Below are positions 2,872 to 25,625 of a stretch of DNA of 27,003 bases, piece by piece. How positions within the stretch are numbered: the stretch's first letter is position 1; every line of letters begins with the position of its first letter. Made by a program: the position numbers and the translations under genes. The stretch is taken from positions 1-27,003 of the IMG/VR virus record IMGVR_UViG_3300047552_000377; one strand, written 5' to 3'. Below the pieces are notes generated by a model. The model worked only from the letters and a program-made list of their open reading frames with translations. It searched no databases and had not been told where the DNA came from. This DNA is from a virus.

Positions 2872-2893
2872 TCTCGAGATACGGGGAGAAACT

Positions 2894-5351: not shown

Positions 5352-5397
5352 ATAAAATGTTCGAAACTAGGTAGGAACAGTAGGAACAGTAGGAACA
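5352..5397 (+). repeat. 46-base direct repeat, copy 2
   Basis: Second copy of the unit at 5191-5236, differing at four positions, all outside the 9-mers. The 9-mers themselves are perfectly kept, consistent with selection on them. Confidence 0.7.
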
Positions 5398-5425
5398 AAT
5401 TAAAAACAAGTTTGTGTTAGTGCAG

Positions 5426-5460
5426 GGGTAAATCAAGGGATAAATCAAGGGATAAGTCGG
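5426..5460 (+). repeat. Three tandem 11-12-base repeats
   Basis: GGGTAAATCAA, GGGATAAATCAA and GGGATAAGTCGG lie head to tail just upstream of the gene at 5482. This is a second, unrelated repeat family in the same non-coding stretch and may be another binding site set or an operator of the downstream gene. Confidence 0.6.
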
Positions 5461-10769: not shown

Positions 10770-11810
10770 ATGATTCTGTTCCTGATACTCATGCTGTTAT
10801 GTGTTCCTGTTGAGGCCGCCCAGAAAGTAGGCACGTTCGGAGTGCCAAACTCTGAGGGACGCGCACCGCTTGAGGTGGACAGCGACAGGAAGGTTACGTT
10901 ACAGTCTGACGCCTCATTGGTGATGGATGGCCCGGTAACGGGAGATTTAATTGTCAACGGGAATATTGGAGTTAACGTATCGTCACCAACACAGCGAATT
11001 GATGTTTCAGGCACGGTTAAGGCCACGAAGTTTAAGGTGGAAGGATTCTCCAGCGATCCTGCCATATATGCAGACAACGACGCCAACACCGGCTTAGTGT
11101 TCCACGGCCCGGATGTGATTGCTCTCCATACCGGGGGTGCTGATCGTTTGGAGGTTACGGCATCCGGTAACGTAGGGATCAATACCACCGCCCCGAGATA
11201 CAGGTTAGAAGTTGATGGCGGGATTTATGCCGGTGGTACTGGCGGGAACACGATCATCGAGACAGATGGATCAATCTATTCCTATGGTGCGGCCACGGTG
11301 TATGAGGACATGAAGTTTCCCGCACAGGCTTTATCCGCCGGTGCAACTCCGGCTGATCCGTGTGCTGTTATAGGTTCTACGTTGAGAACATTGTGCTTTA
11401 ACGGTGATGCCACAACAGAGAGCATGGAACTATCCGCGCAGTTTCCGCATGAAAGACGACTTAATTCTCTTCTCCATCCTCACGTCCATTGGGGGCCGTC
11501 GAATACCAATGCCGGCAACGTGAAGTGGCAATTAGAGTATTCTTGCGCGAACATTGACGGAACATTCCCGGCCAGCTCTACAATATCCGTTATTGACGCA
11601 TCCGATACCGTGGCCCACAAGCACCAGATCGTATCATTACCGGAGATTGACACATCACTCTATGGTCAGATATCTTCCATGTGTCTGATGCGGATATTCC
11701 GTAATCCCGGCGACGGATCAGACACTTACGGATCAGATGCGGAACTGTACGAGTTCGATATTCATTACGAGATCGACACGATGGGAAGTCGAGAAGAATA
11801 TTTGAAGTAA
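10770..11810 (+). CDS. Exported fibre-like protein with jelly-roll-type C-terminus
   Basis: A 346-residue protein with a signal peptide (MILFLILMLLCVPVEA, cleavage before or after the next Ala). The N-terminal AQKVGTFGVPNS...EVDSDR module is shared with the product at 15540. Fibre-like repeats follow (GNIGVNVSSPTQRIDVSG, GNVGINTTAPRYRLEVDG, residues about 70-150), then TDGSIYSYG and a beta-rich C-terminal domain with HPHVHWGPS (about 236) and YEFDIHYEIDTMGSREEYLK at the end, resembling receptor-binding or decoration domains of phage fibres. Strong GGAGG site. An exported virion-like protein is unexpected. Whether it is in the virion is unknown. Confidence 0.7.
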   Translation: MILFLILMLLCVPVEAAQKVGTFGVPNSEGRAPLEVDSDRKVTLQSDASLVMDGPVTGDLIVNGNIGVNVSSPTQRIDVSGTVKATKFKVEGFSSDPAIYADNDANTGLVFHGPDVIALHTGGADRLEVTASGNVGINTTAPRYRLEVDGGIYAGGTGGNTIIETDGSIYSYGAATVYEDMKFPAQALSAGATPADPCAVIGSTLRTLCFNGDATTESMELSAQFPHERRLNSLLHPHVHWGPSNTNAGNVKWQLEYSCANIDGTFPASSTISVIDASDTVAHKHQIVSLPEIDTSLYGQISSMCLMRIFRNPGDGSDTYGSDAELYEFDIHYEIDTMGSREEYLK

Positions 11811-11839
11811 TTAAGTTTATCGCTGATGGATAAAATAAT

Positions 11840-11868
11840 TTGTTGACTTTAAACGATTGAATTATATT
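11840..11868 (+). promoter_or_regulatory. Possible internal promoter before 11875 gene
   Basis: TTGTTG (11840-11845) and TATATT (11863-11868) have a 17-base spacer; TTGACT overlaps at 11843 but with a 14-base spacer. The -10 ends 6 bases before ATG 11875, so the transcript would be leaderless. Layout parallels the sequence before terS. Confidence 0.4.
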
Positions 11869-11874
11869 GAAGCC

Positions 11875-12279
11875 ATGAGAATCGAATCCCAAGAAAACCT
11901 GAATAACATGATCGCAGACCGGCCAGAAGCCGTTTCGCGTGAGGAACGGTTACGGTTCGATCATGCCGCAGTTGCCAGCCAAGCCATTAAAATGATTAAC
12001 TCGATCAGGATGGATGATTTTGTCCGTCGTGTTATGACGCTCAGGATCATGGGTCCGATGATTACCGGGCATGAGCGGACACATCTTTCGATTGCTCTGG
12101 AGCTGGGGGCCACCGAGGATGATGTTATTCAGGCAGAACAGTACGGAATGAAAGTCGTTGAGGATCTCCTGCAAAAGGTTAATTCGCAGGAATTCGTGAA
12201 TAAATTTAACGCCGAGGAAAAGCTAAAACGGACGATTGAGTCCGAAATAAAACGTGGTAACTCCGCACGCTCTGCGTAA
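11875..12279 (+). CDS. Hypothetical helical head-region protein (134 aa)
   Basis: I chose ATG 11875, since the only earlier start is TTG 11857 with no ribosome binding site. ATG 11875 also lacks a Shine-Dalgarno sequence and is likely leaderless or weakly translated. The 134-residue protein is helical: LRFDHAAVASQAIKMINSIR, RVMTLRIMGPMITGHERTHL, then IALELGATEDDVIQAEQYG, and a Lys/Glu-rich C-terminus. It lies between a fibre-like gene and the scaffold gene. I do not recognise the family. Confidence 0.6.
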   Translation: MRIESQENLNNMIADRPEAVSREERLRFDHAAVASQAIKMINSIRMDDFVRRVMTLRIMGPMITGHERTHLSIALELGATEDDVIQAEQYGMKVVEDLLQKVNSQEFVNKFNAEEKLKRTIESEIKRGNSARSA

Positions 12280-12300
12280 GGAATCCATAAGGGGGAAAAC

Positions 12301-13422
12301 ATGGATTTGACACAGGTTGTTGATAACGAAGAATTAGGCAAAGCTGCCTATGCTGAAATAGAAGCGGAGAAGGAAGGCGATAAGCCAGGCGAACCGGAGG
12401 CTACCCCTGCAAAGGATGCCAAAAAGAAGCCTGAACCTGATGCGTCTGACGATGAACCGGCTGAAGGTGGGGAGAAAGACGGCGAACCCGCTGAAGGTAA
12501 AGATAAAGCTGACGATAAGCCAGCTGATAAAGCCGATGACGATAAGTCTGGCGAGGACGAGCCAGCACCAGAAGAAGGTGATCATCTGGCGGTGGATAAG
12601 AAAATCACCGAATATGCTGAAAAGCATAAGATGACCTACGCAGAAGCGAAAGAGGACATTGAAAAGACCGGGGAGATTCTTAAACAGTATAAGAATGACC
12701 CGGCTGAGATGGCCCGCGCAATGCGTAACAAGGACCGGGAGTACCATAAACTGAAAGCAGATCAGGAAAAAGCGGCCGCTAAGAAAGAGCCGTTATTCCG
12801 TCGCATGTCTGACGAACAGTTTATCGGTTGGGCCAAGGCCGAGGTTGCCAAGAAGCCCGAGTTCGTGGAGAAATTCCGCGAAAAGTTCCCTGCCCGGTCT
12901 GAGTCGATGAGCGATGAGGCTATTATTGAGGAGATCGTTGACCGCGAGTTGACGGTTTACCACGAGAAGGCCACTGAAAAGGAAAACGAGATCAAGTCAG
13001 CGGCCAGCAAACGCCGGGATGACTTGGTTGTCGCAATTCCTGAAGCTGATCGACGGTTCATTCCTGAAGTGAAAGCGTTATTGCAGAACATTAGCGATGC
13101 GGATCTGTTAAACAGTGATGACATCGTTAAAGATGCTCTGTTAATGGCGAAGGGGAAAACATACGATTCCGATATTAAAGCCGCAGAGGAACGCGGGTTT
13201 AAGAGGGCGAAGGAAGGCGCACAGATCGTTGGCGTGAAGCCGTCTGCGTCTGGTTCTGCACCTGTTAAGGGTAAGACCAGCGTAACGCTGAATGCCAAGC
13301 AGAAAGAACGCGCTGAACAGATGTTCGGTAATATGGCTGGTGTTGACGGCCCCGAGGATTGCTATAAGGCGTACCGCGAGGCGTTTGAGGATGAGTTGAA
13401 GAAAGATCCTAAATTTGTTTAA
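12301..13422 (+). CDS. Probable scaffolding protein
   Basis: A 373-residue, very charged protein two genes before the capsid gene, the usual place for a scaffold. Residues about 20-95 are a low-complexity acidic stretch rich in Asp, Glu, Ala, Pro and Lys (for example DEPAEGGEKDGEPAEGKDKA). Long helices follow (EYAEKHKMTYAEAKEDIEK, then AMRNKDREYHKLKADQEKAA), and the C-terminus is basic and helical, as expected for the part that binds the capsid protein. It would direct prohead assembly and be removed before packaging. No protease domain is visible. Confidence 0.75.
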   Translation: MDLTQVVDNEELGKAAYAEIEAEKEGDKPGEPEATPAKDAKKKPEPDASDDEPAEGGEKDGEPAEGKDKADDKPADKADDDKSGEDEPAPEEGDHLAVDKKITEYAEKHKMTYAEAKEDIEKTGEILKQYKNDPAEMARAMRNKDREYHKLKADQEKAAAKKEPLFRRMSDEQFIGWAKAEVAKKPEFVEKFREKFPARSESMSDEAIIEEIVDRELTVYHEKATEKENEIKSAASKRRDDLVVAIPEADRRFIPEVKALLQNISDADLLNSDDIVKDALLMAKGKTYDSDIKAAEERGFKRAKEGAQIVGVKPSASGSAPVKGKTSVTLNAKQKERAEQMFGNMAGVDGPEDCYKAYREAFEDELKKDPKFV

Positions 13423-13457
13423 TATCCGGTGATTCCGGTTAAAAAGGAGTTTTATTT

Positions 13458-13952
13458 ATGGCACACGAACAGAAATACGGGCCTGTTAGCCCTTATGCTA
13501 CGGAGAAGGCCGTTCCCAGACCCATTACAGTTGGCGAAACATTCCGCGCTAAATCTGGCCGGTTTGTGACGTTGAACGCGGGTTATGTTGAAGTTGCTGA
13601 TGATGGAGATACTCGTTTACACGGGTGGGCTGAAATTGGCGAGCAAGTTACTGTTGCTGGTCAGTCTGCCAATGTGATCTTGGCTGAAGGTTGCTCTGAG
13701 AGATTCCGCATTCCGATCTCAGAAGGTCAGGCTGGCGCTCCGACAACTCTGGCTACGGCCATTGCATTGCTCGGTAAAACTTGCGATCTGATTCGTGAAA
13801 CTATTGGCGGAGTGACGCTGATTCAGTGCGCGAATCTGGCCGGGTCTGGCGAAGACTGCCTTACGATTGTTAATGTTGATTTCGATAATTATAAGTGGGT
13901 CGATGTTGTGTTTACTCCGGCTAAGGTTACTGCTGGTACGGGAGTTGCGTAA
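13458..13952 (+). CDS. Probable capsid decoration or head protein
   Basis: A 164-residue, beta-rich, Gly/Ala/Val/Thr-rich protein between scaffold and capsid genes, with an AAGGAG site. It starts MAHEQKYGPVSPYATEKAVP and has GETFRAKSGRFVTLNAGYVE followed by a compact beta domain, and Cys residues in the second half. Proteins of this size and place often decorate the capsid in equal number with the capsid protein. The assignment is by position and composition only. Confidence 0.55.
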   Translation: MAHEQKYGPVSPYATEKAVPRPITVGETFRAKSGRFVTLNAGYVEVADDGDTRLHGWAEIGEQVTVAGQSANVILAEGCSERFRIPISEGQAGAPTTLATAIALLGKTCDLIRETIGGVTLIQCANLAGSGEDCLTIVNVDFDNYKWVDVVFTPAKVTAGTGVA

Positions 13953-13988
13953 TTGATGATTGGTTAAACGCTAAATGATCGGGCTACG

Positions 13989-14000
13989 GCCCATTACAAG
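13989..14000 (+). other. Hairpin with UACG tetraloop before capsid gene
   Basis: In RNA, GGGC-UACG-GCCC forms a 4-bp stem closed by a C-G pair around UACG, a known extra-stable UNCG tetraloop. It lies a few bases upstream of the AAGGAG site of the capsid gene and has no T run. It could stabilise the capsid mRNA or mark a processing site. Confidence 0.35.
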
Positions 14001-14008
14001 GAGCTTAT

Positions 14009-15007
14009 ATGGCAGGTTTACGGCTGGATCAAATCCAGGGATATAATAAGGACATGTATAAATACGAACGCATCGGTGAAACGGTCAAACAGGCCAAGTA
14101 CCCGATGATTTACAAAGTCAAGACCGAGGGCGTTACCGGGATGGGCGATAAGTTCACCCAGAAGCTCTCTGCCGGTCAGTTGTCGCGTCACACCGTTGAA
14201 GGTCAGACGATTGTTTTCAAATCGCCTGTCAGCGGATGGACTTCACAGGTGGCGTACCAGACCTATTCTGATGGTTTGACGTTTACTTATGAAGCGGTCA
14301 AAGACGCAATCAAGATGAAGAACATGGTGCAGGATTTCGCACAGACCTGGGGCGATGAAGTTCGTCGCGCCAAGGAAACCTGGGCCGCCCGCGCGTTTAA
14401 CAACGGCGGTACGCTCCTGGGTGATGATGTGTTCAACGGATCGTTTGACGGGAATGCTGATGCCAGCGGGAAACTGCTGTATGACGGTAAGCCGCTGTTT
14501 AATATCGTTGGTAACGAGAATACCACGAAGGGTGGCGGTACTTATATTAATTCTAAAGCTACCGCGTATGCGGCTGGTGCTATTCTGCCGTCGCATTTCT
14601 CCACACTGTATAACCTGATGACAGCCACGAACAACCGGGATGAACTGGATCGTCCTACCGAGAACAAACCTGACACCATCGTGTGTAAGCCTGGTGCGGA
14701 TTATGATTCTCTCTGGACTGTTCTGAACAGCGATCAGTTGGCGAACAGCCAGTTGAACGACAAGAACATCCACAAGGGACGTGTCAAGGACATTATCGAA
14801 TGGGACTACATCACAGATGCCGCTTTTTATTTGGGCAAGGCGAAATCTGATCTCATGCTGTTCGAAGAACGCCAGATGCCGGAGATTGATTTCTTCGAGC
14901 ATAAACCGACCAAGGGATACATGGCCTCGATCATGGTACGTTTCGGGACTCATTTCAAGCCTGGCGTGCGTCGGTTGTGGGTGCGTGGTGGTGGTACTTC
15001 TGCTTAA
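14009..15007 (+). CDS. Major capsid protein, HK97-fold type
   Basis: A 332-residue protein with a strong AAGGAG site. Its layout matches HK97-fold capsid proteins of the group with 'FNNG...GK.L......N', a helix, then a predicted-strand region: WAARAFNNGGTLLGDDVFNG (residues about 127-146), LMTATNNRDELDRPTENKPD, VLNSDQLANSQLNDKNIHKG, then IIEWDYITDAAFYLGKAKSD and the C-terminal MASIMVRFGTHFKPGVRRLW. These correspond to spine helix, A-domain and P-domain features. Position after scaffold and decoration genes agrees. The exact subfamily is not resolved from sequence alone. Confidence 0.88.
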   Translation: MAGLRLDQIQGYNKDMYKYERIGETVKQAKYPMIYKVKTEGVTGMGDKFTQKLSAGQLSRHTVEGQTIVFKSPVSGWTSQVAYQTYSDGLTFTYEAVKDAIKMKNMVQDFAQTWGDEVRRAKETWAARAFNNGGTLLGDDVFNGSFDGNADASGKLLYDGKPLFNIVGNENTTKGGGTYINSKATAYAAGAILPSHFSTLYNLMTATNNRDELDRPTENKPDTIVCKPGADYDSLWTVLNSDQLANSQLNDKNIHKGRVKDIIEWDYITDAAFYLGKAKSDLMLFEERQMPEIDFFEHKPTKGYMASIMVRFGTHFKPGVRRLWVRGGGTSA

Positions 15008-15018
15008 AATGGAGAGTT

Positions 15019-15294
15019 ATGGCGAGAATAAAAACTCGTAATGTTGATTTTCCGGCTTGGGGGCTGTCCCCTCTTGGTGGTAATGCACAGGAGGGGACGG
15101 CAACTGGGTTTGCAGCAGTGCGGAATACCGAGATCATGGGTGTTCCGTTAGAGTATGATCCTGTAAGCGGGGAGTATGTGTCCAAGCTGGCCTTGATTGA
15201 GCAGGAAGATAAGCGTCATGCAGAGGCGTTGGCGCAGAAAACAAGGGAAGATGAATCGTTCCGCCAGAGGGCGGGTTTCCGTCGTAGCGTTTAA
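15019..15294 (+). CDS. Hypothetical small head protein (91 aa)
   Basis: ATG 15019 is preceded by GGAGAG and starts 11 bases after the capsid stop; the open frame upstream of it has no ribosome binding site. The 91-residue protein begins MARIKTRNVDFPAWGLSPLG and ends in a charged helix with RQRAGFRRSV. Such short proteins after the capsid gene are often minor head proteins. I recognise no family. Confidence 0.6.
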   Translation: MARIKTRNVDFPAWGLSPLGGNAQEGTATGFAAVRNTEIMGVPLEYDPVSGEYVSKLALIEQEDKRHAEALAQKTREDESFRQRAGFRRSV

Positions 15295-15312
15295 ACATAA
15301 GGAGTGATCGAT

Positions 15313-15543
15313 ATGGCAAGAGGACGCAGAGCGGCACAGGAAGAATTTGAACCGGAATCCGTTGCTGAAGGTGTTTCGCGTGAAACGCCTATCGAGAACC
15401 CTAATGACGCTCCGGCTGAACCTTCCGTTGAGGGGAACTGGATCAAGGCAACGTACGATGAACTCGTACGGTATGAGAATGAAGGTAAATTGATCGGCTA
15501 TAAGCCGGCAACAATGGAAGTTTTATTAAAGGAGAGTCTATGA
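15313..15543 (+). CDS. Hypothetical small head-region protein (76 aa)
   Basis: A 76-residue protein starting MARGRRAAQEEFEP with a TAAGGAG site. Its middle is acidic and Pro-rich, and the C-terminus GNWIKATYDELVRYENEG followed by KLIGYKPATMEVLLKESL looks like a small winged or SHOCT-like module of the kind that ends some phage proteins. Its TGA overlaps the ATG of the next, exported fibre-like gene. Function unknown. Confidence 0.6.
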   Translation: MARGRRAAQEEFEPESVAEGVSRETPIENPNDAPAEPSVEGNWIKATYDELVRYENEGKLIGYKPATMEVLLKESL

Positions 15544-15998
15544 AAAGGTTTATCCTGGCGATTGGCATTCTGCTGATGGTTGGCGGGGTGGCGTTCGCTG
15601 CACAGAAAGTTGGCATGTTTGGAGTTCCGAACAGCTCTGGTACTGGCCCGATGGAGGTTGATTCTGACCGTGCCATTACGGTGGCATCTGATGCGACGTT
15701 GACGGTGAGTGGAACGACCACATTGGATGGTGCTACCACTGTGAATGCCGCATTGAATCCCGATAGTATTGAAGTTGACGGCGAGATTTACGTTGACGGG
15801 TCGATCTATGCCGGAGTGATCGTGGTTGGGAATAGGACTACTCCTGCAAAGTTTGCCGGAGCAACAACTCTTGATCCGTGCGCAACGCTTGGTAGAGGCA
15901 CTATTTTTATCAATGCCACAAAAGGAAATCCATGTTTCTGTAATAATTACGGTGTTGATCTTAGTTTGTATGATGGCACGACTGCTTGCTTCCCGTGA
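15540..15998 (+). CDS. Exported short fibre-like protein
   Basis: A 152-residue protein with a signal peptide (MKRFILAIGILLMVGGVAFA then AQ). The mature part starts with the module AQKVGMFGVPNS, EVDSDRAITVASDATL, shared with the product at 10770, then has EVDGEIYVDGSIYAG, a fibre motif also found in three other proteins here. The C-terminal 50 residues have four cysteines (LDPCATLGRGTIFIN..., CFCNN, CFP), so a disulphide-bonded tip is possible, consistent with export. Coupled to the previous gene by ATGA. Confidence 0.65.
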   Translation: MKRFILAIGILLMVGGVAFAAQKVGMFGVPNSSGTGPMEVDSDRAITVASDATLTVSGTTTLDGATTVNAALNPDSIEVDGEIYVDGSIYAGVIVVGNRTTPAKFAGATTLDPCATLGRGTIFINATKGNPCFCNNYGVDLSLYDGTTACFP

Positions 15999-16006
15999 TA
16001 ATACTT

Positions 16007-16033
16007 GCCGGGGTGAAATTCCCCGGCCTTAAA
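16007..16033 (+). terminator. Hairpin, weak terminator T3
   Basis: GCCGGGG (16007-16013) and CCCCGGC (16021-16027) form a perfect 7-bp stem with a 7-base loop between two fibre-like genes. The following CTTAAATTTT is only partly T-rich, so termination may be partial. Confidence 0.6.
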
Positions 16034-16052
16034 TTTTGATTAAGGAGATCAC

Positions 16053-16523
16053 ATGTTACGCATACCAGTTAAGTTAATCATTGTGGCATGTCTGGCGTTA
16101 GTGTTATCTGGCGCAGCACATGCGGGTTTAATTGGTGGCGCATCGGTGGTCACCAATGGCAGCGATTCAGCAACAATCGCGGTTAATGTCGATCAAATTA
16201 TTTATACCAGTTCGTTTGACATGAACCGATCAGATGTGTTTGGCGTATGGGTTAAAGCCACATCCGTTACCGGGACACCGGCCATCAAGATTGAGTTAGA
16301 GGAAAGTTACCGTAAGCCAACCACGGAAGGTAGTGGAGATACCGCGTGGATGGAGCCAGCAGCCATTTCTGACGTAGTTACTGCCCTGGCTGATGAAACA
16401 GCTCACATTTACCCATTATCGCCCGTTCCCATGCCGTATGGACGTTATAAGATCACCGGAACTGCCGCTAATCCCGCAGATACTACGGTTTCGATTTATA
16501 ATTTCTTCCAAGGAAATAATTAA
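16053..16523 (+). CDS. Exported beta-sandwich structural-like protein
   Basis: A 156-residue protein with a signal peptide (MLRIPVKLIIVACLALVLSG, then AAHA and cleavage before Gly) and a TAAGGAG site. The mature part is beta-rich, with SDVFGVWVKATSVTGTPAIK and YPLSPVPMPYGRYKITGTAA, a pattern seen in small phage surface proteins that describe a single beta-sandwich. It sits between two fibre-like exported proteins, suggesting a shared surface role. The family was not recognised further. Confidence 0.6.
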   Translation: MLRIPVKLIIVACLALVLSGAAHAGLIGGASVVTNGSDSATIAVNVDQIIYTSSFDMNRSDVFGVWVKATSVTGTPAIKIELEESYRKPTTEGSGDTAWMEPAAISDVVTALADETAHIYPLSPVPMPYGRYKITGTAANPADTTVSIYNFFQGNN

Positions 16524-16532
16524 GGAGTTGCC

Positions 16533-18455
16533 ATGAAACGGATACTCGGACTGATATTGATTGTCTTATCCTGTGCTGGATGGAGTTCCGGTTCAACGTG
16601 GTATGGTTCTGGAAGTGGGGCTAGTACCAGCAGCCAATGGGACGACATCACCGGCGGCATAAACTACGCTGACGGCAACGTCGGCATCGGCTCCTCTTCG
16701 CCGAGGGGGAAGTTGGATGTGGATGGGGCTGTATACATTGACGGGTCAATCTACGGAGATTTAAAATCTTTCGTAAGCCATTCTGGCAGATCAATTACTA
16801 TCTTTGCCCATGAAGGTGACAATTTAACTACAAAATACACGGAAGCTATTAGTCATGGAACCAATGATAAAGTTATATTTTCGTTGGCTCCCGGCACATA
16901 TTCTTGGTGTGGTGTTGCGGTTACAACCCCTGTTCATCTTACTGTTAAGGGCGCGGGAAAAGATTCAACTATTATAAGTTGCTCTCAATCAGGGGCAACT
17001 AACGTATTTAATTTTTCTGGTCAAGACGCTAACTCCTATATTGGTATAAGTGATTTGTCTATTTCTGTACCGAGCGCAGATGCCGGCGCAGCCGGTATAT
17101 TCATAGATCAAATTGCTGGAACATCTTTACTCGAAAGTCAAATAAATATAAGTAATGTTCGCATTAATGTTACAGGAACATTTGATACCGACTGCATATC
17201 CATTGTTGACTCTGGTTTTAATGTAGATAACGTCCAATGCGTATCAACCACAACTGGAACTGTGCGTAACGCCCGTGGGATATATCAAAAGATTGCTGGA
17301 AGTTCGGATAGCGACCTTACATCGAGAATATCAAACTCTAGTTTTATGGCTTCTGCCGCTGCCAGTAACTCGTCATATTCCGGCAGGGGCATGATGTTTT
17401 GGTATTCCAATACAAGCCATTCGTTTAATAATACTGTAAAAGTTGAAAATACTATTTCATCTGGTCAATCAACATTGGCTGGTGAAAATGTGGCGTGTTA
17501 TTGTGTCAATGATGACAACGCCTTAACAAATAGCCAGAACTGTTATTACAACAATGTTATATGTGACGGGAGATCGGCTTTCGGTTCGCAACGAGCGTTC
17601 CGCGCAACAGCCGACAATAACGGACTGCTAAACATATACTGGAACAATGTAAAATTATTCGGGACGACTTACCGTACTAATTTGGTGCAAACAAGCGGGA
17701 CAAATACCGTTTTTCGTTCTGATGGCATTATGTTCTTTAAGTCTGTTGAAAACTCAGCGGCTTATTCTCCCGCTATAACCGGGACCAATAGCGTTCTTTT
17801 AGACGGTATTGACTTAATGTCCATCACGGGTGAAACAGGCGGAAGCAATATATTGACTACTGGTACATCCAACTCCGGCGAGGGTGCAGACGTTCTAATC
17901 ACTTCCGGTCTTGGTGGCTCGTCGGTTGGTACTACGGGCGGTTCGACTGCCGGGTCTGGTGGAGATTTTGAACTTACTGGCGGTGCTGGTGGAGCTCAGA
18001 CAAACGCCTCTGGAACTACAAACACAGGTGGCGCGGGTGGGTATTTACAATTAAAAGCCGGTGCGGGCGGTGCCGCCAATTCGGGAAGCTCTACCGATGC
18101 TGGCGGTAATGGTGGAAGCGTTTATTTAGTTCCCGGTGCAGGTGGCGTTGGAACTGATAGCACGGGAACGGCTGGCAACATTTATATCGGAGTAGCAACA
18201 AGCGGGGCCGGTGTTGGCAATATCTCGATGGGTACAACATCGTCGGTGGGTTTAGTTACAATAGGGACTACTTCTCCGAGCAGAACTAGTGTTGACGGAA
18301 CAAATGATCTTATTGTCAAAGACGCCGTTGAGGTTGATGGGAACGTCTACGTTGATGGATCAATTTATAATAGTGGTATCTATGTTGCTAGCGGGAACAC
18401 CGTTTGTTATAACGCAAGCGGTAAATTCTTCTACGTAAATACGAGTTGCCCATGA
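16533..18455 (+). CDS. Exported tailspike-like beta-helix protein
   Basis: A 640-residue protein with a hydrophobic N-terminal signal (MKRILGLILIVLSCAGWSSG). The N-terminal DGNVGIGSSSPRGKLDVDGA and VYIDGSIYGD are fibre motifs. Residues about 70-410 look like a pectate-lyase-type right-handed beta-helix (repeated short strands with Asn, Ser and Gly turns), typical of glycan-binding or depolymerase spikes. A Gly-rich stretch (about 455-545, for example LTGGAGGAQTN) follows, then a C-terminal DGNVYVDGSIYNSG tip with Cys. The beta-helix section looks more AT-rich than its neighbours, suggesting later acquisition. Catalytic residues cannot be picked out. Confidence 0.7.
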   Translation: MKRILGLILIVLSCAGWSSGSTWYGSGSGASTSSQWDDITGGINYADGNVGIGSSSPRGKLDVDGAVYIDGSIYGDLKSFVSHSGRSITIFAHEGDNLTTKYTEAISHGTNDKVIFSLAPGTYSWCGVAVTTPVHLTVKGAGKDSTIISCSQSGATNVFNFSGQDANSYIGISDLSISVPSADAGAAGIFIDQIAGTSLLESQINISNVRINVTGTFDTDCISIVDSGFNVDNVQCVSTTTGTVRNARGIYQKIAGSSDSDLTSRISNSSFMASAAASNSSYSGRGMMFWYSNTSHSFNNTVKVENTISSGQSTLAGENVACYCVNDDNALTNSQNCYYNNVICDGRSAFGSQRAFRATADNNGLLNIYWNNVKLFGTTYRTNLVQTSGTNTVFRSDGIMFFKSVENSAAYSPAITGTNSVLLDGIDLMSITGETGGSNILTTGTSNSGEGADVLITSGLGGSSVGTTGGSTAGSGGDFELTGGAGGAQTNASGTTNTGGAGGYLQLKAGAGGAANSGSSTDAGGNGGSVYLVPGAGGVGTDSTGTAGNIYIGVATSGAGVGNISMGTTSSVGLVTIGTTSPSRTSVDGTNDLIVKDAVEVDGNVYVDGSIYNSGIYVASGNTVCYNASGKFFYVNTSCP

Positions 18456-18550
18456 CCCCCGTCCCCCTAACAGGCAACGCTCAAACCATAACCGAACTGC
18501 GAGAACTGGTTAAACTCCGTCGTTCCGCGATAAAAAGAGATGGTAAATAA
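18452..18550 (+). CDS. 32-residue mini-ORF
   Basis: ATG 18452 overlaps the spike gene stop as ATGA, and its TAA shares a base with the next ATG (TAATG). It encodes MTPVPLTGNAQTITELRELV followed by a basic end. There is no Shine-Dalgarno, so it would depend on coupling. Short helical peptides of the 'ltGnaqTi.ELr.Lv' type do occur in phages. Real but unproven. Confidence 0.4.
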   Translation: MTPVPLTGNAQTITELRELVKLRRSAIKRDGK

Positions 18551-18882
18551 TGGACGAATCAACCGTACAGATACTCCAAGCGATCACAAGGTTAGAAACA
18601 AAGCTTGATGCAAACATGGCTGAAACATCTCTGCTGAGATCACGGTATCACGAGCTTGGAGGCGTTCTCCACCGGCATGAGTTACAGCTATCAGATAGGT
18701 CATGTCAGACGCATACGGAGAAGATCAAGGAGATGTCTTCTGATATTGTATGGCTTAAGACGGTTAGCTGGTCTGCGGCTGGTGGCGTTGCGGTGTTGCT
18801 GTGGGTAATAATCTATGGGGTTCCGATGATGCACAAGACTCATGCTGACGTGTCTGCGGCACAAACTGGAGTTGATAAATAA
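18550..18882 (+). CDS. Coiled-coil plus TM protein, XhlA-like candidate holin helper
   Basis: A 110-residue protein with an N-terminal amphipathic helix (ILQAITRLETKLDANMAETS), a linker, KIKEMSSDIVWLKTVSW, then one transmembrane segment (about residues 75-93, SAAGGVAVLLWVIIYGVPMM) and a short tail. This coiled-coil then TM layout is shared by XhlA-type lysis accessory proteins and similar phage membrane proteins. It starts a cluster of small membrane proteins. No endolysin is recognisable nearby, so a lysis role is a guess. Confidence 0.55.
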   Translation: MDESTVQILQAITRLETKLDANMAETSLLRSRYHELGGVLHRHELQLSDRSCQTHTEKIKEMSSDIVWLKTVSWSAAGGVAVLLWVIIYGVPMMHKTHADVSAAQTGVDK

Positions 18883-19073
18883 TGCCGTCACCATTCAAAG
18901 CCAAGCGTCAATCTCCAGAGTTCTACGTCGAACAGGCTATCCGTAGCCTTGGTGGACAGACTGAGAACTACGTTGTCAACTCGTATCTTGAAGCGGCCTT
19001 GTTGGCTATGAAAGGGAAAAATGCTCGTAGGAAAAAGACACAAGATAATCCCGCAGCTCGAGAAACTTTATAA
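18882..19073 (+). CDS. Hypothetical small basic protein (63 aa)
   Basis: A 63-residue basic protein starting MPSPFKAKRQSPEFYVEQAI. GGAG lies 10 bases upstream and the start overlaps the previous TAA. The sequence YVVNSYLEAALLAMKGKNAR forms one helix. The end overlaps the next gene by 53 bases in another frame. Function unknown. Confidence 0.5.
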   Translation: MPSPFKAKRQSPEFYVEQAIRSLGGQTENYVVNSYLEAALLAMKGKNARRKKTQDNPAARETL

Positions 19074-19209
19074 CCTTTTGCGTGATATCGAGGAAATGGC
19101 TGACGGGATGAATCTGGTTAATTATGGCGGGCGGGCGCAGTCGATACGGGTTAAGGCGCAGGATGCTTTGGGTGAGATTAATCGTGTGGTTACGGAGGAT
19201 GCGAAATGA
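19021..19209 (+). CDS. Hypothetical helical protein (62 aa)
   Basis: ATG 19021 has AAAGGGA just upstream, supporting this start despite a 53-base overlap with the previous gene. The 62-residue product is helical (KIIPQLEKLYNLLRDIEEMA, VKAQDALGEINRVVTEDAK). Its TGA overlaps the next ATG as ATGA. A start nearer 19096 would avoid the overlap but has a worse site. Function unknown. Confidence 0.5.
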   Translation: MLVGKRHKIIPQLEKLYNLLRDIEEMADGMNLVNYGGRAQSIRVKAQDALGEINRVVTEDAK

Positions 19210-19436
19210 ACTGGCAGAAACTCCTTAGTGGGCAATGGATTATCACAGTTCTAACGTGCCTTACTTACTGTCTGGTGGTTATCGTGACAACTGCTTATTA
19301 CATCCGTCATGCCACACCGGATAAACTGGAAGGCTTTGCCATGGGGCTAGTGATGGGGTTCTCGTCATTGGCAGGGATTGTTTATAAGTCGTACTTTGAA
19401 AGGTCAAGACCAACAGGGGGAACAGATGCGAAATAA
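19206..19436 (+). CDS. Small two-TM membrane protein, holin-like
   Basis: A 76-residue protein with two predicted transmembrane segments (about residues 11-32 and 44-60) joined by a short polar loop HATPDKLEGF and a charged C-terminus SYFERSRPTGGTDAK. GGAGG lies 8 bases upstream. Size and topology fit class II holins, but many phage membrane proteins look alike, and no endolysin is seen in the window. Confidence 0.5.
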   Translation: MNWQKLLSGQWIITVLTCLTYCLVVIVTTAYYIRHATPDKLEGFAMGLVMGFSSLAGIVYKSYFERSRPTGGTDAK

Positions 19437-19815
19437 TATCGTTCTGGCAGTTATCGCGGCGTTGATGATGTTGACGGGGAGTGCGAAGGCGGATGTTATT
19501 CAAGACGGTAAGGATTTCGTGAATACCGTGAAGCCGAATGTCGGGTACATCTATGACTTCGTGAACCATGAGGGCGTCCAGTTTTACAGCCGGAATATCA
19601 TCGAGAAAGGGGCGTTTAGTGTCCCGTTTGGGTACACATCGACCGATGGGCTGGCTGTTGGCGCGGCGTACAAGGTTGGGCCTGTATCGCCCGTTCTGGC
19701 GGTCGGCATGAGGGACATTCGCAACATCGTTGAAAAGCCGTCCTCGCTTACTGTGGATAACTTTGGGGTGTATGCCGGTATAAACTTCAAGATCGAGTTC
19801 GGTGCGGCTAAATAA
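19426..19815 (+). CDS. Exported small outer-membrane-barrel-like protein
   Basis: A 129-residue protein with a signal peptide (MRNNIVLAVIAALMMLTGSA then KA, cleavage before Asp) and a GGGGGAA site. The mature part alternates hydrophobic and polar residues and ends with strands GLAVGAAYKVGPVSPVLAVG and NFGVYAGINFKIEF, with Phe close to the C-terminus, as in small outer-membrane beta-barrels. A phage product in the host envelope could alter receptors or block superinfection, as Lom- and Cor-type proteins do, but no homology to those is claimed. It could also be a soluble periplasmic protein. Confidence 0.55.
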   Translation: MRNNIVLAVIAALMMLTGSAKADVIQDGKDFVNTVKPNVGYIYDFVNHEGVQFYSRNIIEKGAFSVPFGYTSTDGLAVGAAYKVGPVSPVLAVGMRDIRNIVEKPSSLTVDNFGVYAGINFKIEFGAAK

Positions 19816-19845
19816 ATGAACTGGAAACAAGCGCAGGGGAAACCT

Positions 19846-20124
19846 ATGGCAGAAGAATCCAAGATCAGAAAAGGCATGTCTTGGGCGAGTTTGCTGGCCA
19901 TTCTCATGGGTGTAGGGATTATTGCTTATCTGACATGGCAGTCAACAAAAAAGACCGATACGACAAATTATGCCAAGGGTTCGGACCATACGGAAACCAA
20001 TATTACCGTGGCTCCGGTTGAGCATAATTACCCGTTGGCACTACCACGTTGCGGCCGGCTGTTTAGCATTGACCCGAATTGGGCGGCCAGTCTAACCAAG
20101 GAACAACCAAAGGCTAAAAAATGA
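19846..20124 (+). CDS. Single-TM protein with periplasmic-type tail
   Basis: I prefer ATG 19846 because AGGGGA lies 5 bases upstream; ATG 19816, directly after the previous stop, would add 10 residues. The 92-residue protein has a positively charged start, one TM segment (SWASLLAILMGVGIIAYLTW), then a polar tail with one Cys (LPRCGRLFS). N-in, tail-out topology resembles inner-membrane spanin subunits, but there is no overlapping lipoprotein partner, so this is only a hint. Confidence 0.55.
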   Translation: MAEESKIRKGMSWASLLAILMGVGIIAYLTWQSTKKTDTTNYAKGSDHTETNITVAPVEHNYPLALPRCGRLFSIDPNWAASLTKEQPKAKK

Positions 20125-20570
20125 TCTTCCTAGCCAGTGCCATCTCCGCCTGTTTGTACCGTGTGGGGGGTGCCTCAAAGGACGAAATCCCATTCGCCAA
20201 TAGCCAATACCGCGACATCGGCTGCCCGGTTATCGTATTTGGGTATCTTCTGACCTTGGGCGTCACTTGGTATCTGGCTCTAGTCGTTGGTCTGGCTGTG
20301 TGTGGGTTGATTCGGACGTATTGGGACTTCATCACAGGGGATGATAATCTTTGGCTTCACGGGGCCGGAATTGGCCTATGCATGACTCCTCTGTGTTGGG
20401 ATGGCGTATCGTGGATGGGTGTTCTGGCTTATACCGCTATTCTGTCCGTGACCATTGGCGGCCTTAACACGCTCTGCACGCGTGTTACGGTGCCTGGCGC
20501 TGTATGGATCGAGGAACTGTTCAGGGGCGCGGTCCTAATTGCGGCAATTCCTGTAATATTTTGGGGGTAA
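20121..20570 (+). CDS. Multi-pass phage membrane protein (149 aa)
   Basis: A 149-residue protein with about four to five hydrophobic segments. The N-terminal half ACLYRVGGASKDEIPFANSQ, then YRDIGCPVIV, matches a type of uncharacterised phage membrane protein with 'LYRlGG....pf...yRDiGCP'. The start overlaps the previous gene as ATGA. Conserved polar residues in a membrane setting suggest an enzyme or channel, but none is known. It closes the run of membrane proteins before the adaptor gene. Confidence 0.6.
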   Translation: MIFLASAISACLYRVGGASKDEIPFANSQYRDIGCPVIVFGYLLTLGVTWYLALVVGLAVCGLIRTYWDFITGDDNLWLHGAGIGLCMTPLCWDGVSWMGVLAYTAILSVTIGGLNTLCTRVTVPGAVWIEELFRGAVLIAAIPVIFWG

Positions 20571-20572
20571 TT

Positions 20573-21247
20573 ATGACGCTTGGAGATTTCATAAACCGCA
20601 TTAAGATGGCCGTTCCGAACATGGGTGAAACCGGCGTTACCGATCCATATCTGGTAACTCTATTTAATCAAGGCGTGAATGAAGTCAATCTAATAACAAA
20701 GGTTTATTCCGGTTACACTGATTTTGACATTGAAGCCAACAAACGGATTTATAATCTGTCCGTGTCGGTCCCGTCATATCTTGGCACGGATAAGCGAGGA
20801 TTATTTTTTCTGCTTGGCACGGAATGGCAGAAAATTGATCCAAAGACCGAGGCGTATCTATCAGAGAATTTTCAAGATTATCTCAATGCCGGGTCCACGG
20901 AACAGCCAAATTTCTACTGGATCAATGGGGATGAGCTTGGGTTCTACCCGGCCCCGAGTACGTCCCAGGTTGCTGGTGCTAGGCTGTATCATCTGAAAAA
21001 AGGCACTGCTATGGGGTCAAATGACCAATACCCGTTTACCGGGTCAACGACCGAGATAACAGTATTTTCTGCCTTGGATGATGCCATTATCGATTGGGTG
21101 AATTGGAAGCTAAAACCGGCTTATGGCGCGGTGACTGACACGGATCTCGGGTATCGTCGTTTTTTAGAGTCTTGCCGCAAGGGTGCTATGCAGATTAAAC
21201 GGCGCAGGGATCTAACAAACAGCAATCTTACCGGGATAAGGACATGA
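20573..21247 (+). CDS. Tail adaptor (head-tail connector) protein
   Basis: ATG 20573 has GGGGG 5 bases upstream; the open frame continues upstream without a site. The 224-residue protein starts TLGDFINRIKMAVPNMG, has VTDPYLVTLFNQGVNEVNLI, then a beta part with GSTEQPNFYWINGDELGFYP and ends in Arg-rich helix. This is the pattern of podovirus adaptor proteins that bind below the portal ('ll...N.a..ei...t' then '.P..y...g..l.f.P.p'). It is coupled to the tail hub gene by an ATGA overlap, as expected for sequential tail assembly. Confidence 0.75.
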   Translation: MTLGDFINRIKMAVPNMGETGVTDPYLVTLFNQGVNEVNLITKVYSGYTDFDIEANKRIYNLSVSVPSYLGTDKRGLFFLLGTEWQKIDPKTEAYLSENFQDYLNAGSTEQPNFYWINGDELGFYPAPSTSQVAGARLYHLKKGTAMGSNDQYPFTGSTTEITVFSALDDAIIDWVNWKLKPAYGAVTDTDLGYRRFLESCRKGAMQIKRRRDLTNSNLTGIRT

Positions 21248-23739
21248 TTATTGTTGCCAGGGTAATAATGGGCATGATGTGGGCTGTGATGGCCTACATT
21301 GTCATCATGATTGGGTTAATGTCACCGGTTCATGCGGCAGATAGTTTCTACGTCATAGAGAATTTCTCAGGGATGCTGAAATCCCATGTTTCTGAATATA
21401 TGGTTCAGGATGGCGATGCCACGGAAGCGCAGAACATTCGGGCGAATGATGAATATGGCGTGATTGCCAAACGTCAGAAGATGTTCAATCTGTCTGCCTG
21501 TCACGCTGCCCCGGTCAAGTCGCTGTATCGGTATTACAAATCTGATGACACGAAATACACGATAGCCACATCATCGACGTATATTGATTATGTGTCCGAT
21601 GCGGGCGCGTGTACCGCGCTGTATGCGTCTGCGTCCGATGGCAAGCGGTGGTCCTGGATAACGTATAAAGATAAACTGATCGGAATGAATGGAACGAATA
21701 ATGCGAAGAAGTGGGATGGGTCGACTGAGATAACGGTTGGAAATCCCGCAACTGACGATAACTCCCGGACGGCGGGCGATTTAATGGCCGATCTTGGTGC
21801 GCCGTTCGCGCAGTTATCCAGTGAGAATGGTGGGAATGACCTTGATCCATCCGCATGGTATCAGTATAAGGTTGCGTTTCTTGATGGGGCTATTTATTCG
21901 TTCTCGAATGCCAGATCGAATCCAATTATGACGGATTCAGCGATTTATAATTTATCATTGACGGATATCCCATTGGGACCGTCCGGGACAGATGCCAGAA
22001 TTATTTACCGGACTGAAGGTAAAGCCGCGCGAGCAGACGTTGTCGGCCTCGCAGATTCAGCGTTTTATAGAGTGACCACGATCAGCGACAATTCGACAAT
22101 GACGTATGATGACTCAATGACAGACGCCACACTGTTAGGCGATTCCGCTCCGACATGGGCCACGGTATCAGGTGCAGACGATATCGAAGTCACCCCTCCG
22201 AAGTCGAAATTCTCAGTTATCAACCAAGATAGGTTATTCACGGCCAATGATCCGTCCGGCATTGAGTCCGGGAAATCAACAGTTTACTGGTCGGACATAT
22301 TGAATCCTGATTATTTCGTGACTGCTGCAGATTATGACCTGATACGCCCGGATGACGGGGATGAGATCACGTTTATTAAGAACCTGTCCGGTATCCTGAC
22401 GATTGGGAAAACTCGCACGATCAGCAAGTTTTACACAGAAGGCGCGTCAACCGGATGGAGCATCAGCGATCCGTTCTCGTTTACCGGAAATGTGGCTCCC
22501 TGGTCGGCGGTTAACGGTATCACCGGGATATTGTATCTTGGCCGGTACGGGATTTATTCGTTTAACGGGCAGAATAGTGAATTGGTGTCAGATGTTGTAA
22601 CAGATAAGATCCGCGATATTCTTGAAACAAATCAGGATGAGGTTGTCGGGATTTATCACGATAACAGTTATTATCTGGCATACACCAGCTCCGAATCAGG
22701 ATCAGCGAATAATGACCATGTTTTAGTGTTCGATATCACCCGGAATGCGTATGTTGAGGACACTTCCCATATTGATAGTTTCGCAAATTATGACTCCGGG
22801 GATGATTATGGGGTGCTGTATTCCGGCTCGAGCGAGGTTGACGGATCGATTTATGCGCATGGAGAAAGTTTCAACGCTCTGACATATCGGTATGAGAGCC
22901 AGTTGGTTGACGGAACACTGTACAGCGTGAATGTTGGCGGTGAAGAAAACAATCCGAATATCACGCTTGGAAGTGCTGCGACATGGGCGAGCGAGTCGGG
23001 TACATGGGCCGATGCTGGCAGTACGACATGGTTATTGGATGATCTCACTGGTGAATGGTGGTCCCCAGTCGTTCAGATAAATGCTCAATCTCTGGATAAG
23101 CTATTCTGGAATGAATCGCTTGGGAATTACGGGAATGTGACGTTTGCCATCCGCACCGGGGCCACGCCTGGCGCGGTGACGGCAGCGGCATGGTCAAGCG
23201 AGTTTACCGATCCAACGGGTTCGGATGTATCCGGGATAACGGGGAATGTTTATATTCAGATTCGGGCGTCTTTGACATCCTCGGTTTATACGGAAACTCC
23301 AACTGTTTACCTGGAGAACTCATACGTTATTAAAATGTCGTACCGCAAGTCTGGAACTGGCGCGGAACCGGCGTTTTTATCGGTCTGGGCTGGCGGCCGT
23401 ACTGATTTCGGGACCGATGCTCCCAAGCGGATCAAGGATATCCAGGTGTTCTATGCCGGCACCGAAGGGACACTGACATCGTATTACACGGATGATAATG
23501 GAGTTACTCGGTCATTCGACATTGATTTGAGCGTTAAACCGTCAGACTCAGCCACGGATGCGTATTTCGGGACTGATAATAATAAAGTATTCGTTTATGT
23601 GCCAGCGTTTAACGATCAGCCAGTCGTGCGTGATGTGGTATTTAAGTTTTCAGATATTGGAACAGAGCAATGGAAAATCAAGAGGATGGTTGCTAGAATC
23701 GAGACGTTACCTTATACAGTCAGACAAGGGGCGATATGA
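21244..23739 (+). CDS. Tail hub/nozzle-like protein with signal peptide
   Basis: An 831-residue protein. After a hydrophobic N-terminus ending SPVHA-AD (residues about 1-32), the start ENFSGMLKSHVSEYMVQDGD then ATEAQNIRANDEYGVIAKRQ matches the opening of large short-tail hub proteins ('GG....p..i.dge...a.N....dgg.lrkR.g'). The body has beta-propeller-like repeats such as WITYKDKLIGMNGTNNAKKW, RLFTANDPSG and GITGILYLGRYGIYSFNGQN, and a C-terminal beta domain, like P22 gp10 or T7 gp12 type nozzles. No internal start lies between the signal and the conserved region, so the signal peptide is really part of it. That is unexpected for a tail hub. Confidence 0.72.
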   Translation: MIIVARVIMGMMWAVMAYIVIMIGLMSPVHAADSFYVIENFSGMLKSHVSEYMVQDGDATEAQNIRANDEYGVIAKRQKMFNLSACHAAPVKSLYRYYKSDDTKYTIATSSTYIDYVSDAGACTALYASASDGKRWSWITYKDKLIGMNGTNNAKKWDGSTEITVGNPATDDNSRTAGDLMADLGAPFAQLSSENGGNDLDPSAWYQYKVAFLDGAIYSFSNARSNPIMTDSAIYNLSLTDIPLGPSGTDARIIYRTEGKAARADVVGLADSAFYRVTTISDNSTMTYDDSMTDATLLGDSAPTWATVSGADDIEVTPPKSKFSVINQDRLFTANDPSGIESGKSTVYWSDILNPDYFVTAADYDLIRPDDGDEITFIKNLSGILTIGKTRTISKFYTEGASTGWSISDPFSFTGNVAPWSAVNGITGILYLGRYGIYSFNGQNSELVSDVVTDKIRDILETNQDEVVGIYHDNSYYLAYTSSESGSANNDHVLVFDITRNAYVEDTSHIDSFANYDSGDDYGVLYSGSSEVDGSIYAHGESFNALTYRYESQLVDGTLYSVNVGGEENNPNITLGSAATWASESGTWADAGSTTWLLDDLTGEWWSPVVQINAQSLDKLFWNESLGNYGNVTFAIRTGATPGAVTAAAWSSEFTDPTGSDVSGITGNVYIQIRASLTSSVYTETPTVYLENSYVIKMSYRKSGTGAEPAFLSVWAGGRTDFGTDAPKRIKDIQVFYAGTEGTLTSYYTDDNGVTRSFDIDLSVKPSDSATDAYFGTDNNKVFVYVPAFNDQPVVRDVVFKFSDIGTEQWKIKRMVARIETLPYTVRQGAI

Positions 23740-24449
23740 TCCGTTTTCTGGTGTTAATGATGATGGTGTGTGCGCCGGTAATTGCGCCGGTGATGGCGCA
23801 AGAAGTCGTCACCAAGATGGACACGACCGGCCTCGGGATTATGAACGAGGAACTACGCCGCACACGGTCGTCAACCAGTGCTAATGGGGCGTCGATTGTA
23901 TCGTTACAGTCCGACATTACATCGAAGTTTGATTCGTCCACCGGACACGACCATGATGGTACAGATAGCAAGAAAGTTCCGGTTGGAAACTTAGACGCCA
24001 CGGATATTAGCGTAGATAATTATTTATATAATGACGCCGGAACAATTAAAGGCAAGAATTTACCGGCGAATGTGTTTAGTCTAATCAGCACAACGACGAT
24101 AACATCAGCTACGGAATCAGCACAGATACCGATAGATTCGTCCAAGAATTATGTTGCTTATTTGGTTGGCACAAACGATCAATCCGGTTCGTCATGGTAC
24201 ATTACTCCAAGCTCTACGACTGCAAAGACAATAATGTCAACTTCTGACGCCCGCGTAGTATCGGCGGAGGTTAAGATATTCAAAACCATAGGATCTGGAA
24301 ACACTCAATCATGGTTCACAGTGGCTAACAATTACGGAACAACACTTACGCAAACAGCATTTAATATATCCAATTCGACATATTTTACATTTAGCAGTAC
24401 AAACACTTTTAGCGGGTACGTCTATTTGTATGAGATAGGAACCAACTGA
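23736..24449 (+). CDS. Exported tail-fibre-like protein
   Basis: A 237-residue protein with a signal peptide (MIRFLVLMMMVCAPVIAPVMA, then Q) and an AAGGGG site, coupled to the hub by ATGA. After a helical stretch (NEELRRTRSS) comes GHDHDGTDSKKV, the 'HDHDG..S..i' motif common in phage fibre proteins, then a Ser/Thr-rich beta domain. It likely forms a fibre or tip attached near the hub. Export remains unexplained. Confidence 0.65.
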   Translation: MIRFLVLMMMVCAPVIAPVMAQEVVTKMDTTGLGIMNEELRRTRSSTSANGASIVSLQSDITSKFDSSTGHDHDGTDSKKVPVGNLDATDISVDNYLYNDAGTIKGKNLPANVFSLISTTTITSATESAQIPIDSSKNYVAYLVGTNDQSGSSWYITPSSTTAKTIMSTSDARVVSAEVKIFKTIGSGNTQSWFTVANNYGTTLTQTAFNISNSTYFTFSSTNTFSGYVYLYEIGTN

Positions 24450-24456
24450 GGTAAAC

Positions 24457-25239
24457 ATGAAAAAACTCTTACTTTTAATCATAGGATTATTTATTGCGGG
24501 GACGGCGTTCAGTGCCGACGAGTGGCTGAAATCACGCCCGCAGTCCACGGACACCCGCATTTCATGGCCGGCTGATTCACAGGCTAACAATGCCGCTATT
24601 GATCGATTGTTATCGACCTACAACAAAATGCTGATGTCCTATTCCAGCGGGTCAACAATATCGGTTAGCGCGGGATCTGTTGTATGTTCCAATGCCGCAG
24701 GAACAGTCAGACGTATGCGTTTAAACCCGAGTGCCACGAATGTGACGTTCTCGGATATTGACACGGGATCAGAAGCCAGCGGGACTCAATATTATTTATT
24801 TGCGAATTGTGATGCGGATGCTGAGACGGCAACTTTCAAGATTAGTGCCAGTTCGACTGCTCCGACTGGTGTTACTTATTACAAGCGTGTTGGAAGTTTC
24901 TATAACGATTCATCCAGCAACATCACGCGGTTGGTAAATGATGACGCTAAACAGGTTCGCGAGAAAGAAAGCAAAACCGCCGGATCAACGTATCAGGCGT
25001 TGACGGACGGTTTTGTGACGTTCACCGGATGCGCTTCGTCAGTTCGTGGTCAGGCAGGGTATATCTACACCGACAATTCTTCTTCACCTACGACGCTATA
25101 TGGGCAGTTCGGATCTGGTTCAGATCAGGGAAGCGGCTCGGCTATCACTATCCCGGTTAAGGCGGGGGACTATTACAAGACTACATTCTCCTCAACAGAC
25201 TCATGTACGGCAACAGTCTATTTTATTCCTTTTAATTGA
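24457..25239 (+). CDS. Exported fibre-like protein (260 aa)
   Basis: A 260-residue protein with a clear signal peptide (MKKLLLLIIGLFIAGTAFSA) and a GAGGT site. The mature start DEWLKSRPQSTDTRISWPAD, then QANNAAIDRLLSTYNKM, looks like an N-terminal helical attachment region, followed by a beta-rich region with VVCSNAAGTVRRMRLN and GVTYYKRVGSFYNDSSSNIT of the type seen in phage fibres. Six cysteines in total could form disulphides after export. Receptor binding is inferred. Confidence 0.6.
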   Translation: MKKLLLLIIGLFIAGTAFSADEWLKSRPQSTDTRISWPADSQANNAAIDRLLSTYNKMLMSYSSGSTISVSAGSVVCSNAAGTVRRMRLNPSATNVTFSDIDTGSEASGTQYYLFANCDADAETATFKISASSTAPTGVTYYKRVGSFYNDSSSNITRLVNDDAKQVREKESKTAGSTYQALTDGFVTFTGCASSVRGQAGYIYTDNSSSPTTLYGQFGSGSDQGSGSAITIPVKAGDYYKTTFSSTDSCTATVYFIPFN

Positions 25240-25247
25240 GAGGCCAT

Positions 25248-25625
25248 ATGAAAAATATCCTATTAATTCTCATGCTCGCAATATGCACTCCGGCGCTGGC
25301 TGATGTTTATGTTATCACGGATAAAGATGGTGGCATTTACTCGATCAGCGAACAGGACGATGCCGTTCTGCCAGCTGGTTACTCGAAGGATATAATCAAG
25401 GGTAAAATGATCGGTGACTTGGCTTTGGACGGTGATTTATCGCTGTATAAATTTAACGGGAAGAAATTCACGATTGACACCAATAAGGTGGCTGAACGTC
25501 GTAAACAAGACGCTGATTTGGCACAGTCCATTGAGGATAATAAAAATGCCAGGGTTACGGCGATTGGGAAGTTAAAGACTCTCGGGCTGACGGATCTTGA
25601 GATATCGGCCTTAATGGGTAAGTAA
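25248..25625 (+). CDS. Small exported protein
   Basis: ATG 25248 with GAGAGG about 6 bases upstream is preferred over TTG 25236. The 125-residue protein has a signal peptide (MKNILLILMLAICTPALA), then a compact mature domain: YVITDKDGGIYSISEQDDAV, a beta strand pair, DLSLYKFNGKKFTID and a helical C-terminus ending ALMGK with many charged residues. Similar short proteins with a 'k.ngkkf..' strand and C-terminal helix occur near tail fibres and may be chaperones or tip attachments. Function unknown. Confidence 0.6.
   Translation: MKNILLILMLAICTPALADVYVITDKDGGIYSISEQDDAVLPAGYSKDIIKGKMIGDLALDGDLSLYKFNGKKFTIDTNKVAERRKQDADLAQSIEDNKNARVTAIGKLKTLGLTDLEISALMGK

Follow-up and report, generated by a model that had tools for sequence, protein, structure and literature searches.

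Assembly of tailed phages is generally regarded as a purely cytoplasmic process; filamentous phages (Inoviridae) export their coat proteins through Sec/YidC and are put together at the membrane. Here we describe the late region of a tailed phage, the IMG/VR virus record IMGVR_UViG_3300047552_000377 (a fragment of 27,003 bases, contig label G000, referred to as the window), in which the genes for the tail hub and several fibres, lying among head genes of a familiar kind, are predicted to encode N-terminal Sec signal peptides. On balance, we think it rather probable that the Sec signals of the distal tail proteins are genuine and cleavable, and that in this group of podoviruses heads would form in the cytoplasm and tails in the periplasm, with the two being joined late.

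N-termini were scored with a von Heijne-type weight matrix together with a hydrophobic-core and charge rule, with a pass mark of 6. In a calibration with 80 annotated genes of E. coli K-12, OmpF, SsuA, SurA, LptD, fimbrial proteins and others passed, and no clearly cytosolic protein scored positive on all counts. The first-pass annotation had listed nine late products with hydrophobic N-termini, and the ORF listing and inspection of the starts bear this out, all nine being open reading frames (ORFs) that begin with ATG. Eight of them pass the mark (Table 1) and have a basic n-region, an h-region and an Ala-x-Ala-like c-region at about residues 15–35, the features of Sec and signal peptidase I (SPase I) substrates; the Ala-x-Ala-like cleavage sites named earlier are the ones that the matrix predicts. 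The ninth product, encoded at 16533, falls below the mark: it has a strong hydrophobic core and a weak candidate Gly-Trp-Ser site, with Ala-x-Ala absent. This protein contains a VLSC stretch, but its relatives have no Cys at that place, and a lipoprotein (SPase II) signal was rejected. Wrong start calls are ruled out by the ribosome-binding sites of the signal-bearing genes, which match those of other genes in quality, and by the near-absence of alternative starts, since almost no signal-bearing gene has a start preceded by a Shine–Dalgarno (SD) sequence between signal and mature domain. A possible tenth signal, at 26058 (a weak pass, 6.6), was judged a false positive, because its family is otherwise signal-less and it sits at the place of a T7 gp14-type internal protein.

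Scans with the terminase large subunit (TerL), major capsid protein (MCP), portal and hub gathered some dozens of related contigs, and 18 related IMG/VR phage contigs were compared family by family, the tabulated families being those that occur in at least three genomes. The longest relatives (G002–G005) span 38–49 kb, with a 127-base terminal repeat in G005, and the window shares 36–57% identity in the portal and 48–74% in the MCP with the relatives aligned. The MCP and portal alignments found no relatives in 84,980 bacterial and archaeal genomes and none among isolate phages, and isolate or environmental phage records gave remote hub matches and nothing closer. The host is probably diderm, because small lipobox proteins encoded by relatives (L009:17349-17594, G003:23703-23921, L092:705-977) resemble outer-membrane spanins.

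Signals on homologous genes of related phages, which the first-pass annotation had proposed as a check, were found, and their occurrence follows protein families. In particular, predicted signals are all-or-none by family: head, packaging, adaptor and internal proteins never carry them, and the hub (7/7) and the Mtd-like fibre (5/5) always do. Signals are likewise lacking in the families of 10472 (0/18), 13458 (0/17), 15313 (0/7) and 11908 (0/6), and none of the neighbouring head, packaging and connector genes in the window passes, as had been stated before. In the family of the first fibre downstream of the head genes, six of seven members have a signal; the seventh, G001_12792, was given a wrong start by the gene caller, and an internal ATG yields MRKYLLILIAVFSIGWAS. 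Relatives also have a signal-bearing gene at the same post-hub place as 23736, and at the place of 25248 three other genomes have one that is poorly conserved in sequence. The boundary between signal-less and signal-bearing genes falls exactly between adaptor and hub, which adjoin each other in tails of the P22 type. Control phages differ sharply in this respect, with 0–1 signal-like proteins of at least 100 amino acids per genome, as opposed to 6–8 in the window and its four longest relatives. T7, P22, BPP-1, HTVC010P, part of N4 (22–70 kb) and parts of others have tail proteins without a signal, and the sole control protein of at least 100 amino acids to pass is the N4 endolysin (phi14:2 is a weaker control, as the stretch used covers mainly non-structural genes). 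The signal-less head families and the control phages rule out a general hydrophobic bias or an effect of composition.

In the complete cases read, the hub gene lies directly after that of the adaptor (phrog_399 family). A fresh scan brought in a further eight distinct hubs whose 5' ends are intact; every one has a signal-like N-terminus, which brings the count to 16 of 16 distinct hubs, four of them scoring 4.4–5.6, below the strict mark. The signal regions of the hubs are 25% identical and the mature parts 51%, a contrast that is the usual pattern for signal peptides. Outgroup hubs, which come from other phages and have no signal, begin at the residue after the cleavage site predicted for the clade, and two of the three (L023 and L024) have an in-frame stop six codons upstream of the start. 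A second, unrelated family repeats this arrangement within the clade: 13 of the 14 members of the 16053 family have no signal and start at about the window residue that follows AHA|GLIGG, the 24-residue signal being found in the window copy only, right ahead of the family N-terminus. It is difficult to see why two unrelated families would have gained a signal just at the mature N-terminus if it were not later removed. We consider Sec export of the hub and fibre proteins to be strongly supported at the sequence level, and the earlier proposal of systematic Sec export, as opposed to hydrophobic bias, is borne out by conservation at the level of families and by precise N-terminal additions.

From this distribution we infer that the proteins are actually exported and cleaved, that they fold in the periplasm, and when and where heads and tails would join. 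Head, DNA-packaging, adaptor and internal (ejection) proteins would stay in the cytoplasm and form DNA-filled, adaptor-capped heads, while Sec would carry the hub, the fibres or spikes and some helper proteins across the inner membrane, after which SPase I would remove their signals and they would fold in the periplasm. With heads and tails in separate compartments, the inner membrane would be the only place for them to meet or, in the simpler case, they would come together once holins open it late in infection, making tail attachment a late step coupled to lysis. Holin-like genes sit inside the exported block. Among the reasons for export that the first-pass annotation had offered, the best fit is completion of the virion at the envelope, given that adaptor and hub lie on either side of the exact signal boundary. 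A stronger claim, to which we give somewhat less than an even chance, is that this lineage builds its virion in two compartments whose products come together only on failure of the inner membrane, with lysis as the final assembly step.

Several rival explanations were considered. Tails might be finished on the inner membrane while infection is still under way, with heads docked by the portal and adaptor at membrane sites that have hub and fibres assembling on the opposite face, and with the particle spanning or crossing the membrane before lysis; the family distribution accommodates this equally, and the window hub contains an extended hydrophobic segment that might stay behind in the membrane. 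The late region, however, shows no recognised phage membrane docking or secretin-like protein, and a packaged head has no known route through the membrane. We regard membrane-docked assembly as unlikely. It strikes us as quite unlikely that the exported copies are not those of the virion, serving instead to coat the surface or periplasm (roles considered were superinfection exclusion, receptor masking and biofilm or capsule degradation) or arising from leaky signals that leave a cytoplasmic fraction for the virion. Small signal-bearing proteins such as that encoded at 19426 need not be structural, and some products resemble adhesins or depolymerases (Phage_depo_C; DUF4215 and beta-helix); decoration of the cell surface, as suggested before, may apply to the smaller proteins. 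It leaves the hub unexplained, a core tail part that is encoded once per genome and carries a signal-like N-terminus in every distinct case, nearly always with no SD-supported start behind it.

Export might also serve periplasmic modification, with an enzyme of the Wzy_C/O-antigen-ligase superfamily, whose active side faces the periplasm, glycosylating the fibres in the manner of a PglL-type O-oligosaccharyltransferase. Consistent with this, a gene with a Wzy_C match (5e-10) immediately follows the first signal-bearing gene in at least five relatives, G001, G002, L010, G008 and G014 among them. We nevertheless hold this to be very improbable, as Wzy_C is absent at that place in the window and in G003 and the G009–G012 types, all of which keep their signals, specific O-oligosaccharyltransferase models gave no match, and the enzyme may alter host O-antigen instead. 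Least credible of all, in our estimation, is that the hydrophobic N-termini are retained in the virion as membrane-active segments for DNA entry. Internal virion proteins of T7-like phages do have hydrophobic N-termini, and the cleavage sites of the 16533-type proteins are weak; but the basic n-regions, the Ala-x-Ala sites and the way the sequences drift are what signal peptides usually show, and the feature is common to fibres, hub and small proteins. Moreover, cleavage restores the N-termini of signal-less homologues, which also makes the non-cleaved membrane tethering considered by the first-pass annotation unlikely for most of the proteins.

Other observations weigh against two-compartment assembly. 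A P22-like hub closes the packaged head, and heads left unclosed until lysis would need another means of DNA retention. The 16533-type proteins have no canonical cleavage site. Periplasmic disulphide maturation, once offered as a common reason for export, did not hold up: cysteine counts are even in 25 and odd in 21 signal-bearing proteins, against 86 and 104 among the others (p = 0.32), so that across the clade parity does not point to disulphides in general, even though the counts in the window's own signal-bearing proteins are all even and two hub cysteines are gained and lost together across the clade. The putative identity of the hub comes from a bridge of profile matches and from gene order rather than from structure: the clade hub matches an L024-type outgroup hub (hhalign, 94.5%, E = 8e-8), which in turn matches the head-closure Hc3 family phrog_578 (5e-6) and the virion structural family phrog_3287. 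Direct profile comparison of the hub with P22 gp10, T7 gp12 and BPP-1 Bbp13 gave no match, a PDB sequence search with the hub profile gave no credible one, and an AlphaFold model (predicted local distance difference test (pLDDT) 48; all-beta with an N-terminal helix) was too weak for a fold search. Finally, the sequences of the clade come from uncultured phages.

Table 1 Late-region features of the window, with signal scores (pass mark 6) and predicted signal peptides.
Feature	Coordinates	Strand	Score	Predicted signal, then mature N-terminus	Basis and family counts
TerL	6739..8268	+		No signal	phrog_2, 1.6e-17; signal in family 0/17
Portal-position protein, 708 amino acids	8281..10407	+		No signal	Follows TerL, size; in all 18 contigs; signal 0/18
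Fibre-type protein	10770..11810	+	7.1	MILFLILMLLCVPVEA, then AQKVG	Tail fibre PHROGs, 1e-8
Scaffold-like protein	12301..13422	+		No signal	Position, acidic composition; signal 0/18
Putative MCP	14009..15007	+		No signal	Position and conservation; signal 0/17
First post-head fibre-like protein	15540..15998	+	13.8	MKRFILAIGILLMVGGVAFA, then AQKVG	Syntenic relatives also signal-bearing
Beta-rich protein	16053..16523	+	10.1	MLRIPVKLIIVACLALVLSGAAHA, then GLIGG	phrog_28213, 1.7e-12
Large fibre/spike protein	16533..18455	+	4.8	Site uncertain	Hydrophobic N-terminus, GW motif
Holin-like/XhlA-like protein, one transmembrane segment	18550..18882	+			phrog_689, 5.5e-5; within exported block
Small membrane protein, second holin candidate	19206..19436	+			Inferred from hydropathy and synteny with L009:16827-17099
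Small protein, predicted exported, lysis-gene region	19426..19815	+	8.5	MRNNIVLAVIAALMMLTGSAKA, then DVIQ	
Putative head–tail adaptor (gp4/gp11 position)	20573..21247	+		No signal	Family members match structural phrog_399; signal 0/8
Putative tail hub (P22 gp10/head closure Hc3-like)	21244..23739	+	12.3	MIIVARVIMGMMWAVMAYIVIMIGLMSPVHA, then ADSF	
Post-hub fibre-like protein	23736..24449	+	7.4	MIRFLVLMMMVCAPVIAPVMA, then QEVV	
Fibre with Mtd second domain	24457..25239	+	7.8	MKKLLLLIIGLFIAGTAFS, then ADEW	PF21916, 1.4e-7 (above gathering score)
Small protein, predicted exported, between fibre and internal proteins	25248..25625	+	7.1	MKNILLILMLAICTPALA, then DVYV	
Internal/ejection-type protein (T7 gp14 position)	26058..26825	+		No signal	BPP-1 and T7 gene order; signal 0/5

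The identity of TerL is certain, and those of the portal, scaffold and MCP are assigned from gene order and conservation; the adaptor probably starts at 20573 and not at 20504, judging by alignment with relatives. The fibre-type proteins encoded at 10770 and 15540 have in common a mature N-terminal domain of about 40 amino acids, AQKVGxFGVPNSxGxxPxEVDSDR (window 10770-10900 and 15540-15670), which is likely a common docking domain. Motifs of the VDGxIYxDGSIY and NVGIG types recur in these two proteins (10770-11810 and 15540-15998) and in the large fibre or spike (16533-18455), which suggests modular exchange. Relatives of the latter at the same position have a hydrophobic N-terminus followed by GW, with a site that is in part common (GWA, GWT), and one of them matches the tail spike family phrog_4636 and, below the gathering score, Phage_depo_C. 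A fold search with a model of the Mtd-like fibre (pLDDT 54) gave no match at E <= 0.001. As to a diversity-generating retroelement, the scanned genes included no reported reverse transcriptase, although this contig is fragmentary and no search aimed at one was made.

In relatives, Wzy_C superfamily proteins are encoded within the late structural region (L009:10416-11594; L010:10599-11783; L026:10931-12133; L064:10563-11759; and G002), followed in most cases by a signal-less protein of about 300 amino acids of coiled-coil type. G005 (49,270 bp) encodes, in the fibre region, a signal-bearing late protein of 902 amino acids that contains three DUF4215 repeats and, in its mature part, 20 cysteines (L062:16770-19475, minus strand), and also a signal-less ORF of 4,174 amino acids after the internal-protein genes (reverse-complement 18415-30939). 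ORFs of low-complexity repeats (GVLTLGVLTL..., GDSVWDSV...) occur near the contig starts of relatives (G003 35-451; L048 89-448). In the window, three short tandem repeat arrays with units of 9 and 12 bases (5209-5455) separate the late region from a large replication-type ORF (2774-5107).

If the two-compartment arrangement is real, this clade would change the picture of tailed phage assembly as purely cytoplasmic and would tie completion of the virion to the lysis clock. Phage yield would then depend on host Sec, and tail proteins, once in the periplasm, could undergo oxidation or glycosylation or be assisted by chaperones. A signal-bearing hub right after a signal-less adaptor would be a marker for such phages in metagenomes.

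The clade shares with BPP-1 (Rauchvirus) and with phages of the P22 and T7 types the gene order TerL, portal, scaffold, MCP, adaptor, hub and internal proteins. In addition, BPP-1 has a fibre with the Mtd second domain, and the Hc3 family matched by the outgroup hub holds P22 gp10. In T7, P22 and BPP-1, however, the tail proteins have no signal peptide, and the clade, unlike these phages, has fibres and a lysis block between MCP and adaptor. Virion proteins predicted to be made with signal peptides recall the Inoviridae; the clade differs in being tailed and double-stranded DNA-based, with a cytoplasmic head, a distal tail that alone is predicted to be exported, and lysis genes, and secretion machinery of the inovirus kind was not seen in it. 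In P22, according to a record note, a host protease (OpdA) trims the N-terminus of a virion protein, gp7, but that protease is cytoplasmic and gp7 is an internal ejection protein without a Sec signal. Signal-arrest-release endolysins are likewise late phage proteins that use host Sec, yet they are lysis enzymes, one per genome, and not parts of the virion. Searches of the open-access literature on signal peptides in phage virions and on phage O-antigen ligases turned up no exported tail module, and to our knowledge there is no tailed phage with one. The components themselves belong to a familiar type of phage; what is new is their routing.

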